64,000 nucleotides of DNA from Toxoplasma gondii ME49. Lineage: Eukaryota; Apicomplexa; Conoidasida; Eucoccidiorida; Sarcocystidae. The notes under the pieces are model-generated. The model had not been told where the DNA came from. It made no database searches and was given only the letters and a program-made list of their open reading frames with translations. The position numbers were made by a program, and so were the translations under genes. Location of the stretch: NCBI RefSeq assembly GCF_000006565.2, contig NC_031471.1:124001-188000 (forward strand). Reading direction: 5' to 3'. Shown in pieces: positions 7,570 to 49,561 of this stretch (position 1 is the first letter of the stretch; the number at the start of each line of letters is the position of its first letter).

Positions 7570-8739
7570 CTATTTGCTTCTCCGAGAGTGGAGCTCCGGT
7601 TCCTCGCCGGCGCCTAGGAGGAGATGCTCCTCCCTCTTCTCCTTGTACTTCGCCCGCTGTTCAGCCTCCAGAATATCAAGTTTCGTCCACTGCTCCTGAA
7701 GCTCTTCCCATTCTTTCTCGAGACGCTGCCGATACCGTATGGCCAGGTCTTTCGCCATCTGGAAGCCATAGGTGCCGACCCTGAAGTAACACTCGCAGCG
7801 AACGAAAAAATTTCGTTCGTGGTTCCGTCTAGAGAACTGCACGCGCCACGCACCCTGGGGGTGCCACCGCACACCTCTCTGGTGGGAAATGTAGGCGCCC
7901 CAGTTGATGCGCTTCGCGGCCTCCTTGGCTGCTACGGTGTTATTGTTCAAGAGTCTTTTCACAGTGCTCGACGCGGTAAGAGAGTGGGGAATGGGCGGTG
8001 GGCGCTGCTCAACCGGCACGTACGCCGTTTGAGCAGGGTGAAGAATTCGCATTTGGTGACGACGCTTCTGAACCACGCGCTGAGTTCCGAACTTTCTGAC
8101 TAGGTGAGTGCCTGCGGTGCCCCTGCCAGACAAGGACAGCGGCACGACAGCCCGGCCCAACGCGGGGTGAAAGTCTTGCCAGGAGGCCTGTTCAGAGGCA
8201 CCGTTAGTCGCTCGGACTGAGATCTTAGGAGGGCAAGACCTAGCGGAGCAGCCTGACAGCAGAGAACATTGGGGCGGAAGCCATAACCGGGAGGGTGTTC
8301 GGCGAACCAGCGAGCGACAAAAGGCAGAGAGAGGGCAGGCAGCAGTGTCGCCCAGATTTCGGTTGGACGCGGGGCACGCACGCTGCTCGAGACAGGAATA
8401 CGCATGGTTCTTGAACAGAGAAAGCTTTTCGGACATGCGTGCATTGGTAGGAGGGGAGCCGTTTCCGTCAGATGTGCGTCGAGCCTTGCAGTCTGACCCG
8501 TTTCCTGCGCAGAAACGATCTCTCTGAGAACAACCTGAGGTGTCGTTACCGCTGCCACTCAGCGCCTCAGCCTCGTGATCTGCTACGGGAGAAAGTCGAA
8601 ACGAACGGTGAACGCGACATGGGACAGACTCCTCCCCTTTAGAATGACCCGGCAAAGACGACGACGCAGCAACCGACAGGGGACCTGGGAAACAGTGACT
8701 TAGGGTCGGGAGAACTTTGGAAACAGTGCGGAATGCCAT
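7570..8739 (-). CDS. AP2-domain protein with putative mitochondrial presequence
   Basis: Single exon, 389 aa from the ATG at 8739 (the frame is open 50 codons further upstream, but MAFRTVSKVLP is a better start). Residues 1-35 are free of acidic residues, with basic, Ser and hydrophobic residues, as in mitochondrial presequences. Residues about 288-339 form an AP2/ERF-type domain: GVRWHP..AWRVQF strands, then FRVGTYGFQMAKDLAIRYR as the terminal strand and helix. A charged coiled-coil-like tail rich in Glu, Lys and Arg follows (about 340-372). The middle is low complexity. ApiAP2 domains normally bind DNA in the nucleus. The N-terminus here and the lack of a long nuclear-type linker architecture suggest an organellar role, and AP2-fold proteins have been reported as recruited parts of the Toxoplasma mitoribosome (from memory). 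The AP2 call is good; the location is inference. Confidence 0.72.
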   Translation of the reverse strand: MAFRTVSKVLPTLSHCFPGPLSVAASSSLPGHSKGEESVPCRVHRSFRLSPVADHEAEALSGSGNDTSGCSQRDRFCAGNGSDCKARRTSDGNGSPPTNARMSEKLSLFKNHAYSCLEQRACPASNRNLGDTAACPLSAFCRSLVRRTPSRLWLPPQCSLLSGCSARSCPPKISVRATNGASEQASWQDFHPALGRAVVPLSLSGRGTAGTHLVRKFGTQRVVQKRRHQMRILHPAQTAYVPVEQRPPPIPHSLTASSTVKRLLNNNTVAAKEAAKRINWGAYISHQRGVRWHPQGAWRVQFSRRNHERNFFVRCECYFRVGTYGFQMAKDLAIRYRQRLEKEWEELQEQWTKLDILEAEQRAKYKEKREEHLLLGAGEEPELHSRRSK

Positions 8740-10452
8740 TGTTATCGCCAGAGACGAAAAATTGTCATGCAAGTTTCTTTCAGGAGAGAAAAGATCACGA
8801 GACACTTCTATTGTACATGCTGCCGCTCTCCGCCTCTGATAGGCCATGCGATCCCGAAGGCACAGCAAAAGGGGAACCGTAACGTACACAAACAGTCCAA
8901 GGAATTCAGATTCCTACGAAGTGAAGAAACTTTACAGCGACGTCACACAGTTTGGACAGACAACACAAACGGACGAGAGGAAATGCCACGCCGACACGGA
9001 CCGCATGCCTCTACCGCGGCATCTGTTCCGTGGCGGAGGTCCGTCGTGTCAAAGACCACGTGCCGCTAAAATTGTACGGGACCACCTCAGTTGGACTCCA
9101 CTTTCCCGTTAGGAAAGAGCAACTTCTCGCACGTGTTGAGCGTAGTGTGTGGAATGAGAGAATCTGGATGTCCGTTTGCGCATGAATAAACATGAATAAA
9201 CGATTAATCCGCGTAACGTGGACAATGCATGCACACAGGCGGACATGCAGCAACGCAAACAGACCAACAAGTCTAGCATCCACTCGCACGTATCCAGATT
9301 CAAACAGCCAGCAACCAATAACTGCGCCTCTTGGCAAAATGGAATTCCATTTAAATGAGTTCTCCTCCGGGTCAACTAAGGTGAACTATGCCACAAATTC
9401 TGAAAGATCCGAACTGAGTTCTCCCTGGTTGTTTTACTCTTCTTGGTGGACTAAAGTTGTCTGTTGTACTCTAATGGCCGCACTAGAGTTCGCACACACA
9501 CTCTACAAAGTATATCGAGAAGTTGGCCCTATTACATGAATAACTTCAGGAAGTAGCAGAAAGGCATCTGACTGGCTCTCGACCTGCAACGGTAGGTACC
9601 AGCGTCTTTCTCGAGGGCGCCGTTCTTCACGCAAGATAGGCAATCTCTGCGCATGACGTATTTCCCAGTTATTTCAAGTTCCTTAAAGAGAAACACCATT
9701 CCAACCTCACTAAAGCGTCTGTATACGGTCAATACACGTGATGCTGCACGAAGAACCTGGAAACACATCGCATACGCTGATTAACTACTGACTCTGAGTT
9801 TCAACTTCTCTTGCGGTGATGAGGACCCATTCCTCAAATTCGTTTCTCGTCTAACGCGTTTTATTGAGTGGATAGGAAAGACATTACGGTTCGTATAAGA
9901 GAAAAAGGACTTTTCGTAAGCAACGTACACCGCACGAACAACTACGTATTTACGTGCTCCTGTCTCAACGCGACAACACTCCACTACGGGCTTGCTCCCC
10001 GTTCGAAAACTTTTTTTTCCTTCTCTTCGTCTCTCCATTTGAAATTGTTTTTAGTGTGCTCCTCGTATGCGCAAACATTCTACTCCTGTATTTATAGGTC
10101 CAGATCGATCATTCTCTTTGTGTTCGTGCATACGCCTTTCGTGCGATCCCTTGGCAGTGCATCATTTCGGAACACTTAAGAAGACAAGGCGATTCTACTT
10201 AAAACAAAATGAACTTGAATGGCAAAACAACGCAGTTTTAACCTCCCAAATTATATTCAGCTACCTAATTTCGTCTCGGAGCATGGGGGAGACAGAGAGA
10301 AACGGTTTTTTCATCTCCCGTCGACGCGTTTGGCACTCTCATCGCAAACTTGACGAGCTAGGCCGTGGTTTGAACAGCACGACATTCAGGAATCGTAGTT
10401 TCCGCCATCAAAACTCTTCTTCGAGTAACGTGTGTTCTTGAAGTTTCCTTTT
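8740..10452. other. Intergenic region between tandem minus-strand genes
   Basis: Upstream region of the AP2 protein and downstream region of gamma-SNAP. No coding chain is supported. The frames at 9192-9539 (+) and 9011-9375 (-) overlap each other and have no domain signal. The promoter of the AP2 gene should lie just above 8740, but no specific element stands out. Confidence 0.5.
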
Positions 10453-31436: not shown

Positions 31437-34400
31437 GCTCTCGGCGTGTGTAACGAGGGATCCTTTGTGTGCATGTTTGTTGAGGTCCGTATATATGTAT
31501 AGGAATGCTTGCGGACAAGGGCGTCTGCGTGATGTTGTGCGTGGATCAAGGCTTCTTTGCATCCGCACATGCAGTCTAGCATTCTATGCCTTTGTTTACT
31601 ATATTCTTATAATCACCTCGTAGCTTGCATGTACGCTTACACGTAGACGTCCATGTGTATATTTTCAGATTTGCTCAGTTGCGTGTACCTACACGTCTAC
31701 GTACGGATACACCTGCATGCGTTCTCACATTTACGCATGTAACTCCAAGCTTGCATGTTTCTTCGTCCGTCTCTAGTTGAATATACCCTTAAAAACGCAT
31801 GCAGTGACATCTTTACTGTGTCTGTGCCCAGGCGGGGTTGCGCAGAGCCGTGTATGCATGCGTAGGTCTCAGCAACCATACGGTGTTCCAGATTTGTCTG
31901 ACCGGATGTGTGATCGCAGCGCGAGTTGTTTGCACGTCGTCGACTCACCAGTGGAGTCGAGTGCAGGAAATGCTGTTTTGCGTTTGTTCTGTGGTGTGAG
32001 CCGTTCTTGTTGATGTCGGTGTTCCGTTGATCGCCTTCTCGCCGGTGGATTTGATGGTCGTTGCTTGATGTCCAGGCAGAAAAGGTCTGGAAGCTGGCTA
32101 CCAGGTTCTGGACATGTCACACTGTACATACATGGTGTCTCTGGTGACTTGATCCGCACTGGAGGAACGCTGTTTACACCGGGTGTATGTACGGATAGCA
32201 AGCGCTCGCCGTTTCTGTCTCTCGTTGAAAACCGATTTCACCGCTCTTGCGGGGAGTTTTGTCGCGCGGCATGCGATCCCTGCAGCACACGCTGTTTCTG
32301 GGAGGCCCAAAGAACGAATGGCTGCCTTTCCAGTACGGAACGACGCGCGGCGGATCGGTTCTCTTGCTGGTCTCCGAAGTCGATGGACTGCGCATCGTGA
32401 CGAACAGTAAAACCGAGTTTCTGCACAGAGTCGCCGCGAGCACAGACGCGGTTTTCTCCGTCGGCAGCTGCGAACCGCCAGCGATGCTCTGCTACGCCGT
32501 GGAGCGGTACCGGGCTCACGACGCTGCGGCAGACGAGAGTCTGCGGTCGATCAAGCAAGACTTAGGTGAGCTAGCGGTCGTCGCGGTTGCGGCAGAGAGG
32601 AAACTCGGTCCTTTCGAGCTCACTCGTTAAAGAATCTGAGAGTCGGAGATCGAGGAAAGACGCTAGATGGGAGGTCTTGACGGCTCAGCGACCCACAGAG
32701 CAGGACGCACAAACAGGGCGTCGAGGCGAACCGCGTGGAGACATCTTCATGAGCTGTCCCCATAAAAAGCTGCTTGAATGGGAGGGAGAGTCCACACATG
32801 CATTTGGTCTTTCTGACCCCCATTACGAAGCGCCGCGTCGGAAACCAAGGCGCAGAGAAAAGTTCCATTTTTTTCCAGAAAGACTTCTTCAAGTGAACTG
32901 AGAGGCACGGCGAATGCACCCGCTGCCTCTGTCCGCGTATCCGTTCTCTGTCGTTCGACCGAAGGCCTTCAAGAAAACCTGATTTCTCCGTCGAAGGGAA
33001 CAACGAGATCTTGGCAGAGAGGCCTGGGACTGAGAACCGATGAACGATCCACACAGTCGAAAAAAAATCTCCAGAGAAGAAGAATCAGGGGAAAAACTGA
33101 AACTTTCAGATCCATGCTGTGTCTGCCTGCACCCGTACACGTACACAAGACAAACCAACACCAGACAAATACGTATATACATATACACATATATACATAT
33201 ATATACATATATATAGATATATATGTAGAGTGCCTCGTGAGCAGAGAGAAGATACATGTGCATGCGTCCATGAACGCATTTCTTCACATGCATATATCCA
33301 TATGCATATGTACCGATATGTGCATATCCATGTACGTATATATGAATGCTTCTATACATGTACAGATCCACATTCATTATTTGTACATCTGTGTACATAT
33401 GAGTGCATGCATAGATCCTTATACATATTTCCATACGTCCACATACGAGTCTACGCAAATCGGATTCGGGGCAGGGAAATCTGGAGCGAGAACATGTGTG
33501 GAGGCTCTCGTTCTTTTTCGCACTTGGATTCTGTTTCCCTGCATGCGCGGTGCTTTCTTTTTAGCTGAAGCAGCAGAGGCATGCATCGACGCAGCGACGT
33601 ACGAGTGGCAGTTTGAGCAAGCGGCGGCGCTCCTTCAGGCTGCTGTGTTCGGCCGCCAATTTCTGGACGGAGGAGCCCGGCAAAGTTGCAGATCCTTTGT
33701 CCGCGCATGCAGAGACCTCAGGTGAGAAGCGGCGACTCGGTCACCCTCGTTTTCTCAATGCTGCCAAGCGAAAAACTCGGGATGCTATGTGCATGCCAGT
33801 GTGTACGCACATATCTATGCATGTCTACCAATATACATATAAATATATATATATATATATTATATACATATGTTTTAATGCATGCGTACGCATCTGGGCC
33901 GAACGGCGCGCCATTGGAGCGGTGTGGATCTGCGTGAGTGGATTTATGTCGGCTTGCCTCTGCCTGCTTTTTAGTCACTCTTCCATTTGCGGCAGGTGCG
34001 CATTTCATACCAGCGTATGCCCAATTGTGTGTACACCTCTTCACAACGCTGCACGTATATCTCCATATCTCTATTTATCTGTATTTCTCTCTCTCTATAT
34101 ATATATATATGTATCTGTGTGTTTCGATATATGCGTTTTTATCTTTGGACTTTTTCTGTTGGTCACTATTCTTTCTATTTCTTGTCGTTCGTTGTCAGGA
34201 TTTGCTACGCAGTTCGACAGCCACCTTTAGAGATGCCGATTTCTGTCGCTCAGCTGCGGCACATGAGTCTCGCTACACTCGTTCGTCATATTGCCAAGTA
34301 GGTTTGCGTTTCGTTTTTCTTCGTGTGATGCATTCTCTGTTTTCGCTGCGTTTCGTCTGGGCTCTGCTTTATCTCTCTTCAAGACGCGCGCGCGCGCGTC

Positions 34401-42200: not shown

Positions 42201-43369
42201 TCACACGATAGGGATTGTGCCGGTGTGTACCTCCTTGATTCGTGTGAGGGTGCCTCTGACGTTTTCCTGTTCACTCTCTGAGTCAGCAAAAAAGCAGACG
42301 TAAGCAGACTTCCCCGCAAGCAGCTTGTTATTCGTGAACTTTGCAGTTTTGGGATCATGTCTCTTGATAGCTGAGAGTGCTCTGGACTCCGGTCGGAGGC
42401 GCCCGCCGAGAACAGAGAGCAGAGCGAGGATCTGTGATCGGACCCAAACACTGCGACAGTTGGAGAGCGTTGGCAAAAGACCAGAGGTCCACCTCCCTAG
42501 CGTCATCCGTATAGGTCCTCGCAGAGGCGTTGTTCCCTGCGCAGAGAGGAGGGCGTCGAAACGAAAAAAGAAACGAGAGACGAGAGACCTGTACGCCAGA
42601 GATCGTGCGAACGACGCCTCCGTCGTCCTTTGGACTCGAGCTGAGGCGCTCCGAATATAAGCGGGGGCGACGACACAAAAGGGCAGGAACAGTTACGAGG
42701 ACGAACCGGTTTAACCAGTGAGGGAGGAGAGCGCCGGGTCTCTGAAAATGAATCCTCCACACACTTTCGTCTTTGTGAATTGACATAGCCACCTGCAATT
42801 ACGTAAACGAAACATCCTGACCGACCGTCCCCGGCGATAGCTCAGTTGGTAGAGCGGCAGACTGTAGATGCATGCGGTTATCTGTTGGTCCCTGGTTCGA
42901 TTCCGGGTCGCCGGATATCAATTTAGAAAAGGTTCATGCTGGAGGGATTTTATCGTTTTTTCTTTACAAACGGAAGTTTCGAAAAACAATGCATTTAGGA
43001 TCCTCTTTGCCCTGCACAAAACGGGCGTCAAGCGGCAAGCGACCTGCATGTTTCAAGACAAGAAGACATCGAATGGACTGTTTTCTGCCTTCAAACGAGG
43101 AACTGGGCGACGAGCAGTCAGAAGGCAACGACTGCCATCGGCTTGTCCTTCTTCGCACGTTTTTCCTCGTTTCTGCGATCAACTCGAAATCAAGGAATTC
43201 CAGTTTTTTGAACGTGGAACAAGGCGTCTCGCTTCTAGTACGCTGACGCCGAGGCAGTGAAACCTAACGGGAGGGAGTGTTGAAATTCTCCAAAGGAGGC
43301 AAGCGCCGGTGGCAAGCGTCAATCACCTGAAGCATTGGACAAACGCCAAATGAACACGATGAGCCTCCA

Positions 43370-43681: not shown

Positions 43682-45400
43682 GGTGGATAGATCTGTATGC
43701 AGAAATTTTAATATAAATGCACGCACTGAAGAAGACTCCTCTACCTCGATAGGGTTGACGAACGGCCACACAAGAGGCCCCTCTAATTCCTGGGCAAGAA
43801 GCTCCAGGAAGACTCCTGTCTCATCGCTGGCGTCTTCAGCTTCGGTGTGTGTCTTGCGATCCTCGTTTTCTGTGCATTGCTCGCGCTGCATTTCTTCGCT
43901 CTGGAGGGCGACTCCTAGCCACGAGAGAAGCGCCAGCGACCGCATGTTTCGCTCTGCAATTCCTTCGTCTTTGTCTGCGGGAAGAAGCACAGTCTCCGGA
44001 ACACACGAGAGGAACGTGGACGTACATGGATCTCCTTCGCGCTCCTCACCTCGCGCTGACATCCTTCGCGCGTCTTGCGACTTTTCCGGTGCTCTGGCGG
44101 AACGGGGACAACGGCTCGTGGACGTCCAGCCTGCCTGTGTCTCGGCATTGACGGATTTTCCGTGCGAGCATCCGTTGTCTCGCAACGAGAAATCGAGTCT
44201 TGAAGCCACTCGCCAAGTCGCGTCTCGGCGGCCGGCTCCTGCGTTCTCCTCTGATAAGCCACCGCGTTGTTCTTCCTCTTCTGCTCTTTCTTTTTCACTG
44301 GCGCGATGCGTGTATTTCGCGTTGTCTGTCGCCCCGGCTGTCCCTGCCTGTCGCGCCGATGCGCCTGGTCTACCCTTTGGAGGATTGTTTGCTTCTTTGC
44401 GTTGCTTCGTCCTGTCCATTGCGTGAGGTCCAGGAAAACGGCACGCGGAGGAGGAACGACACCGACGGTCTCGCTGCAGCTCCCTGCGGACTGCGTTGGC
44501 GAGGAGGTCCTCAGCTCTCAGGCCGTCTTCGTTGACCAAGGAAGGATCTGCGCCGTGCTGAAGAAGCAGAAGGAAGAAGGGCAAATCTTCGCGTTCAGCT
44601 GCAAGATGCAGAAGACGAATGCCCCCCACAGAGCCTCCCTGGGGAGGCGCAGACGCCGCAGGCGATCGCAGGCCGCTGGCGCCAGTCTGGCCGCAGTTCC
44701 CTTGACTCGAGGCGCTTGTCCAGGGAGAAGAAGGAGGAAAAAGCGGAGACGAAGGAGAAGAAGAGAAGGAGGAGAGAAACGAAGACCCACAAGGAGATTG
44801 AGAAGGAGACGACGGGAGGGGAGCAGACGAGGAGACAAACGATGGCGAAGAGGAACCGACAGAAAGGGGAGACGTCGCTGAAGAACTCGACGAAGGCAGA
44901 GAGGGCCTTTCTGAGATGGTGGTAATGGATTCGGTTCGTGTAGAAGATGCTTTGGAAGTGATCTGTGACGAAGAGTGTAAAAAACAGGAGGGAGTTCGAG
45001 AGGAAAGAAAATGAAGAATCTCGACAGGGAAACAACTGTTTGGGTCTGCGCCGCGAGCAAGAAGGAGAGCCGCCGCCTCGAGGTTCCCAGAGAGGCAGGC
45101 CTGCATCGACATGAACAGAGACACAAAGTCCCGATCTCAGACGCCGGGTGTGTCGCCAAAACGGCATTCTCCGGATATAAGCCGAATCGGTTCTCTGCCT
45201 GGAGGTGTGTTTATTCGAGGCTCTCACAGCATCTGTCAGGCTCATGCGTTTGAGCTGGACAAGGCATGTTGACCTGTCTTGCTTCTCCGTCGTCCTCGAT
45301 GTGTAAATGCTGGTGCCCACCCAGATAGAGATATTCTGACTTATGCAAACATACACCGTCACACATACAAGAAAATATGACTGCACATAAACATATGTAT

Positions 45401-45431
<31 letters not shown>

Positions 45432-45722
45432 GGGTGAGAGTTGAGCAGGTGGATAGATTAGGAGATGGACGGATTGAGAGACGCTGGATGAACAGATGGA
45501 CTGATGAAAAGACAGACACCCAGAAAGAAATGGATGGACGGGGAGAGGTAGAGACCCAGTAGGCACGCAGTGAAACTGACATCCTAATGAAGGGGACAAT
45601 GAAGTAACAACCACACACCAAAATGTCCCCCAGCTACGCGTCGATGTACCTGTTTCTACATATCTGTATATTTACACGCACATACACATACATTCACATA
45701 TATAGGTTTATATATATATATG

Positions 45723-45754
<32 letters not shown>

Positions 45755-46279
45755 TATATGGATATGAGCATGTACACGTGTGTGTTTACGTATACTTATA
45801 TGTGTATTTGCTCTTGGCAGAAAAATAGGGGAGAGCTCCGAGTCGAAACGCGTGTTGCGCAGGCATCTCGATACGCGCGGACAGACCTGGAGAAGAAGAA
45901 AGGAGAGTTCGACAGTCGCCTGAACTCTCGCGAGGTGTTGCAGCAGAGGCAGTCGCGTTCGCAGGTCATCCACGTCGAGGCGAGCTGCGTCGAGCCCCAG
46001 AGCCGGAAGCGCCGCGAGCCTAAAAAGGAAGTCAGTGCGCGTCAAGTAAAATGCCGATGCTCGATTCACAGACGACGCACATTCATTTTCTCATTTTGAA
46101 CAAATTATTTTACTTCTACGCAGTTGCATATACGTGGAGCCACATGCCTAGATCTATAGATCTCTCTACATCTCTATGTGTGTACATGACTACACCGGCA
46201 TCAGCATACCTAGCAGAATACATATTTCTATAAATAAATATATATATATATATACATATATACATATATACATATATAC

Positions 46280-46310
<31 letters not shown>

Positions 46311-48947
46311 GATGCATGTATTGATATGTGGAGGAAGAACGATTGCACGTACATGAGGAGATCAGCAACGCCCTACACATCTGAAGATGCACCTTTCCAC
46401 ACCAGTGTCTCTATGAATGTCTACTTCCGCGCATCTCTTTCAGGGCGTTTCGACGTCCGATGATTTCCTTATCTCTGCTTCGTTCTTGCACCCTACGGTC
46501 TGATTTGTTTGCGATAGAAGGCTCGAAGTGCGTCAAGATTTTGATCCGCCGCAAACGACGCAGACTCTCGGCGAAAGAGGAGCGCAGCGACAGAGCCCAC
46601 GACCTTTATTCGGAGGAGACGCAGAAACCGGACAGTCCCCGACGGAGACAGAAGAGCCTTGGTGACAGCGAGAAGCAGATCGCCCAGGTGACGACTGCAA
46701 GCAAAGAAAACAGGATGTAGGAAGAGGGAGGCAAGGTTGAAGAACGAAGCAGAGCCACGGCCCGGAAGGCGAATAACGCGATCAATCGGGGAAGGCGAGC
46801 ACAGATGATGTTTCAGCTGTTTTGAGGAGCCTCTTTGCTCGGAATTTCATGCGGCGCTCACAGACTCAACGGCAGTGAGACTTGAAGAGTCCAGCCTGGG
46901 CACACTGCCTTTGCACTATCCTGAGTCTGTCAGGCAGAAGGACTCTGCTCCCCATTCCCTCGGTGCCATGTCACCTCGTCTTCTACCTCGTTTTCACCTT
47001 TCTCAGCGTCGTCTTCATGTTTTCTCTTTCATCGTCTCCCTCAAGTTTCTCCCGCTGCAGTGTCCGTTTTTTTCTGCTTTTCTTTCCCTGTGCTGACGTC
47101 GGTTCGAGCGCGAGGAGGCGGCCGCCGACGCACAGCACGGCCGCGGCGGAGGCGAGGACGGCCTCGACTTCCTCGGCGCCTTCGGTGTCTTCAACCACCT
47201 CGGTGAAGTTTCGCACGAGCAAGTCGTCCAAGCCTGCAACGACCAGCGCGAAGTTGGTCTTCAGCAGCGGCAGGTCGTCCCCGAGGCTCGCACAATCTTG
47301 GAGAAGAAATCGGCATTTGTTGGCCCTCTCCAACGCGGCTGTGCGAGTCACGCTCAGAGAAGAGGACGACTGGCAAGACGAACGAGAAGAGGAAGAAGGA
47401 AGCGAAGAGGACCCACAACGCGACAGAGAGAGTGCGCGGTCTGAGACGTCGATGCCGACGTAGGACCGAAAGAGAGGCGAGATGGGAGAGAGAAAAGGAA
47501 TCTGGATTGGAAGAAGAAAAGCAGAAGCAAACAGAGAGGAGGAAGGCGGAGGTGCAAATAGCGGAAGCACGACAGGAGAAACACAGCTAAGCGCACGGTG
47601 CAGGACTCCGTGGAGAGAAGGATGAGGCGAACCAAGACGAGGCAGAAGAAAGAGACGCCTCATTCTGCACAGAGACGACGAGCGAGTTGAACGCAGAGAG
47701 ACAGAAGAGCTTGTTTTCTGGCCGCGTCACCACGAAGAAGAAGCAAGCATAAATCAAACAACAGATGGAGGCGGGGGGGGGGTGAAAGGGAAGACAAAAA
47801 GAAAGGAAAAAAGAAAGGAAGAAAAAACTCGGAAACATCCTGGAAATGAAGTGCGACCGTGAGAAGGGTGGCACTGCGAATTGTCGCCAGTGACAGTTCG
47901 AGTTTGTCTTTTCGATTTTTCTGCTACTTCCCCTCTCTCTTTGACTCGTTCTCTGTCCTCCGTCCTCTCCCTTGCCCTTGTCATCCTCTCATTGGCCCGC
48001 GTCCCTGTTTCGATGGCGTTCACAAGGTTTTCCTTGCCCTCCTCTCTTCTCCGCCTCCTCTCGCGTGCTGTGCCGTCGCTCCCATCTAGCTTCCCCCTTT
48101 CTCTCTGTTTCTTCTCTGTCCAGTGCGCGCAACAAGGTCCTTGCTCCTGTCGTCTACGGTCGTCTGCTGTCGTCTACTGTCGTCTACTGTCGTCTACTGA
48201 CGCCTTTCCACCTCGCGGCTTCTCTCTGTCCGTCCCCGGCTTAGTGCGTCGCTTTCGATCGCTCAGTCCTCCCGAGTCCAGCTCGCAGCTCGTTTGCTTT
48301 CTCTCTGCTCTCTCCCTGTGTCCGTTCTGTCTCCACATTCTCCTCGCTTTGGGGGCCCGCCTGGAGCGCGCGTCGTCGCCCACGGTTCGTCTCCCCGGAA
48401 CGCACCTGGTTGCCGCGGCCGCCACACATCAACTCCACGAGAGACGCTGTGCGCGCGCGCGGGGGGAAGAACGCAAGAGCCGAGGCAGAAGAAGCGAAAG
48501 CCGAGGCAGAAGAAGCGAAAGCCGAGGCAGAAGAAGCGAAAGCCGAGGCAGAAGAAGAGAAAGCCGAGGCAGAAGAAGAGACAGCCTCTCCGAAGACAGA
48601 AAAGGAGACGAGTGCTTCGAGGCGGTTCTGAGACGGCGCATGCGACAGGCCGCCAGTCGCGCCAACCAGCAGATCCTCCACGAGCTCGCGAACTCGACGA
48701 GAAGAAACGAAATATTGAGACTCGGCCGTCTGCTCAAAAACTGCGTTCCAGTACAGGCGCGTCTTGGATGGCGTAGGAGTCCCCTACAAAAAAAGCGACT
48801 CTGTGCAGAGGACTTTTGAGTGGTGCAGAGCCAGGAGACGAAACACCAAGACGCATGCAGAAACAATCCTAGCTGTGCTCTTGCTTCCACCTCTCTAACT
48901 CTATGAACACAAGAATACAAAAACGCACGCGTGCGTAGACGTACTAC

Positions 48948-48979
<32 letters not shown>

Positions 48980-49561
48980 TATTATATATATATATATATA
49001 TATATATTATTTTATATATATATATATATACATATACATACATATACATATATATACATATATATACATATATATACATATATATACATATATACATGTA
49101 CATATATATACATATATACATATGCATATATATACCCATATACGTATACATATGTATGTATGTATATATATATATATATAGGGTTTAAGGTATATGTATA
49201 TATGCATATATATGTATATATATATATATATTTGTACCATATGTTGCAGATCACGCAGGCCTACACACGCGAGTATGCACTTGGCAGAACATGCTCGCGT
49301 TGATCCCGTTTCGAGAAAAACGGATCGATTCGGATGCTGTTCTGTTTCTTGTTTCGCATGGGCAAAGCTGTGACAAGAGCAGCGTTTTGTTTGTGTGGTT
49401 ACCTCCCCACAGACGATTTTCCTTCGTTTTCGTTTCGCTGCTTCTTCTGCTTCTTCGAGTGTCTCTTCGCGGCCGTCTCTGTCCGCGCCCTCTTGACGGT
49501 GGTCTCTTGTTCTCTTGCACTGCGTACTGGGAGGCTGCGACGCCGAGGCTGCTTGTCGCAT
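42201..49561 (-). CDS. METTL13/EEF1AKMT-like methyltransferase fused to ankyrin repeats, eight exons
   Basis: Exons on the minus strand: 49561-49403, 48783-48406, 47501-47098, 46694-46497, 46019-45887, 45100-43745, 42792-42589, 42536-42201, giving 1055 aa with all phases matching. Class I SAM-dependent methyltransferase, closest by eye to METTL13/EEF1AKMT enzymes that modify eEF1[12 protein letters not shown]-terminal block (about 65), motif [13 protein letters not shown] (168-179) completed across an intron, acidic-loop YVGIDVSD (193-200), [10 protein letters not shown] (about 266-275), GGRLLALEP (about 304-312) and [13 protein letters not shown]. An Ala/Ser-rich insert (about 118-156, from a 21-bp minisatellite) sits between the first helix and motif I. 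Two ankyrin repeats follow, [20 protein letters not shown] (about 422-445) and one near 584-617, with a Ser-rich linker. Exons 1-6 are well supported. Exons 7-8 (residues 877-1055, no domain) lie beyond a tRNA gene and may be a separate gene starting at 42786. Confidence 0.65.
42831..42915 (+). tRNA. tRNA-Tyr (anticodon GTA) with 12-nt intron
   Basis: The cloverleaf is complete: acceptor stem CCGGCGA/TCGCCGG, D arm GCTC...GAGC with the AGTTGGTA loop, anticodon stem GCAGA/TCTGT with loop CTGTAGA, five-base variable region, T arm CCTGG-TTCGATT-CCGGG, and discriminator A at 42915. The intron, 42868-42879, sits at the canonical place, one base 3' of the anticodon, as in nearly all nuclear tRNA-Tyr genes. 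It contains the word TGCATGC. A box and B box (GGTTCGATTCC) promoters are internal. A TTTT at 42949 and six Ts at 42957 are possible polymerase III stops. The gene lies antisense within the putative intron between exons 6 and 7 of the methyltransferase-ankyrin gene. Confidence 0.95.
43366..43408. repeat. (TA)n microsatellite
   Basis: TA run between the tRNA-Tyr gene and exon 6 of the methyltransferase-ankyrin gene, within the putative intron 6. Confidence 0.9.
43624..43680. repeat. (TA)n microsatellite beside exon 6
   Basis: About 55 bases of TA, about 65 bases downstream (in gene direction) of the GTAGAG donor at 43744. Without splicing at that donor the protein would run into a (YI)n tail, which supports the donor. 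Confidence 0.95.
45400..45434. repeat. (TA)n microsatellite in methyltransferase-ankyrin intron 5
   Basis: Short TA run with a TACATG start, between exons 5 and 6. Confidence 0.85.
45700..45766. repeat. (TA)n microsatellite in methyltransferase-ankyrin intron 5
   Basis: TA runs broken by TGTA, about 120 bases downstream (in gene direction) of exon 5. Confidence 0.9.
46232..46312. repeat. (TA)n/(CATATA)n microsatellite in methyltransferase-ankyrin intron 4
   Basis: TA runs with regularly spaced C giving a TATACA-type higher-order unit, between exons 4 and 5. Confidence 0.9.
48151..48200 (+). repeat. 10-bp minisatellite in methyltransferase-ankyrin intron 2
   Basis: Five tandem copies of CGTCTACTGT with small changes (CGTCTACGGT, CGTCTGCTGT, CGTCTACTGA). 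Confidence 0.85.
48475..48600 (-). repeat. Coding 21-bp minisatellite encoding an Ala/Ser/Phe insert
   Basis: A unit of 21 bases (GAGGCAGAAGAAGCGAAAGC plus C on the plus strand) is repeated about five times. In the minus-strand methyltransferase it encodes ASAFASS-like repeats inserted between the N-terminal helix and motif I. The plus strand is also open, as an EAKAEAE repeat. The minus strand is preferred because flanking residues on both sides are methyltransferase-like and the exon ends are phased. Confidence 0.85.
48942..49236. repeat. Long compound (TA)n/(CATATA)n microsatellite
   Basis: The longest simple repeat in the window, nearly 300 bases of TA with CATATA, TGTATA and GTATG interruptions and a short unique spacer (GGGTTTAAGG) near 49181. 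It lies in intron 1 of the methyltransferase-ankyrin gene. Both strands read as (YI)n. Confidence 0.95.

Follow-up and report, generated by a model that had tools for sequence, protein, structure and literature searches.

The stretch of DNA analysed here, which we call the window, comprises 64,000 nucleotides of Toxoplasma gondii ME49 (contig NC_031471.1, positions 124,001 to 188,000 of the forward strand). On its minus strand lies a gene of seven exons (on contig C5 in our numbering), whose joined product of 896 amino acids agrees in every residue with the public T. gondii ME49 'ankyrin repeat-containing protein' (P0001). Our analysis distinguishes three conserved parts of this protein: a divergent methyltransferase-like domain of class I, a minimal ankyrin module, in which a helical cap accompanies two repeats, and a set of C-terminal motifs (LSW...WPF..P.E). 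The methyltransferase-like part is new to a gene that was previously named for its ankyrins; being too diverged for the Pfam cut-offs, it had stayed hidden.

All exon borders of the gene are GT-AG, and the phases are consistent at all six introns. Exon 1 (49403..49561) begins with the start ATG at 49561 in the context GAAAAATGC and encodes a basic stretch, KRKRRK (KRRK at 49429-49418), which to judge from its sequence could be a nuclear signal; the KRRK pattern occurs in four of the 14 proteins of the alignment described below (P0001, P0004, P0006 and P0008). Exon 2 (48406..48783) covers the helix region YWN...YF, with which the methyltransferase begins, and contains a serine/alanine repeat insert as well as a motif at 48441-48409. 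The insert (SSASAFA...) is not the same in the ME49 and CAST proteins, and the relatives lack it or have a different one; this coding repeat may thus be variable between strains. Exon 3 (47098..47501) carries the beta2, beta3 and beta4 regions. The alignment and a predicted model place three features within it: strand beta2, which ends in an acidic residue (47462-47430), the residues DC in the region of beta3 and, following beta4, the motif AGLDD (47237-47223). Exon 4 (46497..46694) encodes EPTRH, whose first residue is divided between exons 3 and 4, and the two strands that complete the methyltransferase. We estimate the limits of the whole domain as residues 61-357, i. e. 46565..48762 with introns included.

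The linker helices and the first half of ankyrin repeat 1 are encoded by exon 5 (45887..46019). Exon 6 (43745..45100) begins with the second half of this repeat and continues with a serine-rich insert (about 45019-44624), ankyrin repeat 2 (about 44623-44519) and the tail motifs LSWLG (43927-43913) and WPFVNPIE (43768-43745). An earlier note on this DNA had described six minus-strand exons with matching phases. All six positions, their GT-AG borders and their phases were correct, but exon 7 (43264..43326), which contains the stop codon TAG and supplies the annotated C-terminus, had been missed. The exon 7 peptide is the same in P0002, a protein bearing the source label UNVERIFIED_CONTAM, and similar in P0004 from Neospora. 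Long microsatellites of the TA/TATG type are found within introns 1, 4, 5 and 6.

Protein searches revealed orthologues in Hammondia, Neospora, Besnoitia, Cyclospora and eight Eimeria species (E. flavescens, stiedai, praecox, magna, maxima, tenella, mitis and brunetti). In T. gondii, Hammondia, Neospora and Besnoitia their names refer to an ankyrin protein only, and in Eimeria and Cyclospora they are mostly hypothetical or uncharacterized. The alignment has 14 rows from 13 species, Cyclospora being represented twice (P0062 and P0068). Excluded from it were the half models P0003 and P0007 and a second Neospora model, P0005, which, unlike P0004, has neither ankyrin repeat 1 nor the insert. Across the alignment the order is methyltransferase, ankyrin, tail, apart from partial models, in which the tail (P0065), the beta2 stretch (P0068) or the beta3-beta4 stretch (P0069) is missing. 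A search for the same architecture in other coccidia, as the earlier note had proposed, thus finds it in Sarcocystidae relatives, Eimeria and Cyclospora. Outside the coccidia, the matches listed in the three protein searches were only ankyrin-bearing proteins with 5-22% query coverage (52 of the 60 rows of one search); the searches required shared five-residue words and two of them scored a capped number of candidates, so that distant relatives could be missed. Judging from these sequences, the combination of methyltransferase and ankyrins may be lineage-specific. No literature on this gene was found by topic, although papers using its ToxoDB number could be missed in this way.

The ankyrin module begins near residue 413, and two repeats are detectable by Pfam. 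In the profile search of the joined protein that the earlier note had proposed, ankyrin families scored above their Pfam cut-offs: Ank reached 29.1 bits (cut-off 21.1), Ank_4 28.5 (22.7) and Ank_3 27.8 (22.3). Ank_5 and Ank_2 remained under theirs, hence three of the five ankyrin models pass. An ankyrin match at E<=1 was obtained for each of the 14 aligned orthologues. In the precomputed Pfam annotation, ankyrins are absent from the half model P0007 and from P0005, P0008, P0062, P0066, P0067 and P0068. Ankyrin-type helices are present in the predicted models, and the fold matches of this part are RNase L and designed ankyrin proteins. Repeat 1 is interrupted by intron 5 in just the way that had been claimed, i. 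e. exon 5 ends with ELSFLLLQ and one repeat is formed across the intron. The insert between the two repeats is long in Toxoplasma and its close relatives, serine-rich in T. gondii, and short in Eimeria. For the conserved tail (LSW, WPF..P.E) we have no role to offer beyond that of a docking aid.

A class I (seven-beta-strand) methyltransferase fold of the N-terminal domain is well supported. The strand and helix order of this class is seen in a low-confidence predicted model, and the PDB fold matches agree with it. When the model of the E. tenella protein was compared by Foldseek, the top four rows were nicotinamide N-methyltransferase, an active enzyme. Profile-profile scores of the domain alignment (trimmed domains from 7 of the 14 rows) exceeded those of a shuffled null. 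The pocket motifs, among them AGLDD and the acidic residue that closes beta2, are conserved above the rest of the domain: the beta2 acidic residue stands in YVG[IV]D in 13 of the 14 proteins, the remaining row (P0068) being without this stretch, and AGLDD follows beta4 in 12. Motif I, which is indeed split by an intron as had been stated before, reads E[LVF]MCG[GS]R in 14 of 14.

Several observations weigh against this assignment. Motif I departs from GxGxG in having other residues in place of glycines 1 and 3. The full-length T. gondii protein had no Pfam methyltransferase match at E<=10, and the trimmed domains gave Pfam methyltransferase matches only below threshold, the best with an E-value of 0.0017 (Methyltransf_11); the scores of the first member were 14.9-16.8 bits versus cut-offs of 21.2-30. 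The mean predicted local distance difference test scores of the two models, 53.0 and 47.3, mean low confidence. With the T. gondii model there was no Foldseek match at E<=0.001 and there were no methyltransferases among the 50 matches listed (Foldseek, VIA); its VIA matches cover the ankyrin part. The fold call is hence drawn from the E. tenella model and not from the T. gondii model. Thus the earlier suggestion to look for a methyltransferase profile in the joined protein led to no Pfam match, but the domain is revealed by the relatives and by fold comparison. When the PDB was searched with the four Sarcocystidae rows alone, the two matches that came up look like chance (E 0.056 and 0.26). 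In NCBIfam, four trimmed cores matched bacterial ankyrin effectors and MzaA, and two of the four also matched the methyltransferase model ovoA_Cterm (E 0.036); where a cut-off is given, no match came near it.

The interpretation that we favour, with a probability of roughly 0.55, is that one gene conserved in coccidia encodes an S-adenosylmethionine-dependent methyltransferase to which a substrate or partner is docked by the ankyrin module. From its position, the beta1/beta2 edge of the N-terminal domain would bind S-adenosylmethionine, and methyl transfer would take place near AGLDD. The methyl acceptor would be a macromolecule, most likely a protein, which the ankyrin module and the tail would dock, directly or by way of an adaptor, and keep at the active site. 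Ankyrin repeats commonly dock proteins, and by analogy such a role is a reasonable inference here. No specific substrate is supported. We speak of a class I methyltransferase and assign it to no family.

The degenerate motif I would also be compatible with a pseudo-enzyme, in which catalysis has been lost and the domain serves as a sensor of S-adenosylmethionine or as a scaffold, the ankyrins relaying the signal to partners. With the E. tenella model, Foldseek indeed gives the S-adenosylmethionine sensor upstream of mTORC1 at rank 5 (E 1.1e-3). However, the active nicotinamide N-methyltransferase in the top four rows has similar E-values, and the extra conservation of the beta2-end acidic residue and AGLDD fits catalysis at least as well. 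Loss of activity hence appears rather unlikely to us.

The earlier note had seen in this gene a methyltransferase of the METTL13/EEF1AKMT type fused to ankyrins. A class I methyltransferase-like domain and ankyrins do occur together in one protein, but the family label is not supported. As a reference we used PDB 2pxx (human MGC2408), which we take to be EEF1AKMT4. Our domain has the class I fold in common with it and with the N-terminal domain of METTL13, as well as YW[DN] ahead of the fold. In a search of the whole genome (65.3 Mb), in which only the best candidates were scored in the first pass, 2pxx found five places on contigs C6, C3, C13 and C14 and none in the window. The gene on C6 (L002, 798-1902) resembles EEF1AKMT4 and the N-terminal part of METTL13, and served as a positive control: its trimmed product matched 2pxx with an E-value of 1.9e-22 and passed four Pfam cut-offs. 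Since this gene also has GCGNS and DKGFLDA, a true member of the group looks unlike our protein. Where 2pxx and the C6 gene have GCGNS as motif I, the protein has E[LVF]MCG[GS]R, and where they have [DE]KG[TF]LDA after beta4, it has AGLDD. GCGNS and KG[TF]LD, common to 2pxx and the C6 gene, were found in none of the 14 orthologues. Three weaker matches to MGC2408, L003 and L005 on C3 and L004 on C13 (E 1.7e-6, 0.029 and 0.007), are possibly additional T. gondii members of the eukaryotic elongation factor 1A lysine methyltransferase (eEF1A-KMT) group by sequence.

Six PDB matches at E<=10 were obtained with the profile of seven domains, and 2pxx was absent from them. It is the first VIA fold match of the predicted model, but tied with the next rows (13.5 and 13.4). 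In profile-profile comparison (hhalign) the eEF1A-KMT group scored 42.9 versus 37.9 for cap methyltransferases, the one family used as a control (locus L009, the only one taken from 11 loci considered); the two scores are close, and the printed group alignment does not pair motif I with motif I. Among single sequences, a T. gondii protein of the cap type reached 32.6 and thereby outscored 2pxx (24.8) and the C6 gene (20.7). The highest of 60 shuffles of the two single sequences was 23.1, so that 2pxx lies barely above this null and the C6 gene below it. In seven-beta-strand lysine methyltransferases the members of each group share a 'Post II' motif after beta4 (PMC10238732); at the 'Post II' position our protein differs from 2pxx and the C6 gene. 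On the PDB profile search, the genome search with 2pxx, the C6 control, the profile-profile scores and the missing motifs we reject METTL13-type membership. The second domain of METTL13 is described as a spermidine-synthase-like methyltransferase (PMC6109062), whereas here an ankyrin module is found; Pfam lists only ankyrin families for P0001 and no second methyltransferase domain as in METTL13. Distant kinship to the eEF1A-KMT group is possible, because 2pxx is the top, though tied, fold match, a weak structural lean. That our protein is a highly diverged member of this group (EEF1AKMT4 or METTL13 N-terminal) which has eEF1A or a different translation factor as its substrate and carries ankyrins where METTL13 has its second domain, is doubtful, as a clear T. 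gondii member is found elsewhere, on C6.

Combinations of ankyrins with a methyltransferase are known from other proteins. One of them is a yeast methyltransferase, presumably Rmt2, in which the ankyrins precede a delta-N-arginine methyltransferase. Rmt2 is similar in being a Rossmann-type protein methyltransferase with ankyrins; in our protein the ankyrins follow the methyltransferase. Among the additional domains recorded for yeast methyltransferases are ankyrin repeats (PMC3153492), and the substrate of Rmt2 is ribosomal protein Rpl12 at Arg67 (PMC3020972). G9a/GLP (EHMT1/2) likewise unite ankyrins and a methyltransferase in one chain, and their ankyrins bind methylated lysine 9 of histone H3 (PMC8564726). 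Their catalytic part is a SET domain, whereas here it is a class I domain N-terminal to the ankyrins; no SET domain was matched by the joined protein at E<=10 or listed at E<=1 for the 14 orthologues. In Toxoplasma itself, small ankyrin modules joined to other parts are found in TgBDP1 and CPH1. TgBDP1 has one bromodomain and three ankyrin repeats, for which its authors suggest a G9a-like reading role (PMC10470533); this layout is not present in our protein by Pfam. In the conoid protein CPH1 the ankyrins are critical for targeting and function, and the first ankyrin domain lies at residues 31-114 (PMC5740107). The CPH1 ankyrins thus start at residue 31, those of our protein near residue 413. 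With G9a/GLP as a parallel, one might imagine a single-chain, coccidia-specific reader-writer with an unrelated catalytic fold, whose ankyrins read a modified, e. g. methylated, protein and whose class I domain methylates this protein or its neighbour, and which would found a methyltransferase family of its own. We regard this as a long shot.

The pattern at the exon 5-6 junction is unbroken in 11 of the 14 aligned proteins; it fails in P0008 (an apparent retained intron), P0064 (a missing segment) and P0067 (a diverged stretch). The E. flavescens model has extra hydrophobic residues at the junction, ending ...CMQ|ACREGD, which corresponds to the T. gondii acceptor ATGCAG|GCC. The extra residues look like an intron retained at or near the same position; the intron positions in Eimeria are deduced from protein models and not from DNA. 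Because the architecture recurs in the relatives and the junction is kept in these 11 proteins, the fusion appears to be old, common to the two coccidian families sampled (Toxoplasma and Eimeria groups), and is unlikely to be an accident of modelling, as the earlier note had already argued.

A point against a single gene is that some T. gondii strain annotations split it between exons 4 and 5. P0007 (CAST; 3 member sequences) is the methyltransferase half of 373 amino acids and ends at a stop in intron 4, and P0003 (9 member sequences) is the ankyrin half of 508 amino acids. Since retention of intron 4, with its donor GTAGGG (46491-46496), leads to an in-frame stop at once, a methyltransferase-only form of the protein is conceivable. 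A separate promoter and start codon before exon 6 would, according to the earlier note, refute the fusion, and this is seen in part: in-frame ATGs exist 6 and 12 bases ahead of this exon, but their context is weak, with T at -3, as opposed to the AAAAATG start at 49561. That gene prediction has fused two neighbouring genes, one for a methyltransferase and one for an ankyrin protein, is nevertheless very improbable, as the phases match at all six introns, the intron-split repeat 1 keeps both halves in the above 11 proteins from two parasite families, separate annotations made for Eimeria, Cyclospora, Neospora and Besnoitia treat the two halves as one protein, and on its own the half-repeat of exon 5 would serve no purpose.

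Elsewhere in the window, a tRNA-Tyr (GTA) with a 12-base intron lies at 42831-42915 on the plus strand and was confirmed as a tRNA by Rfam; ARAGORN, when run without introns, had labelled it as Leu (tag). An AP2 domain (E 6.5e-13) was found in an open frame at 7573-8913 on the minus strand. An open frame at 32817-33722 on the plus strand contains a short match to the Vps16 N-terminal domain (24.8 bits, cut-off 23.4).

The gene on which this analysis centred enlarges the set of coccidian methyltransferases by one conserved candidate enzyme. It presents itself as a two-domain unit, for which the questions of docking and of methylation are now defined.
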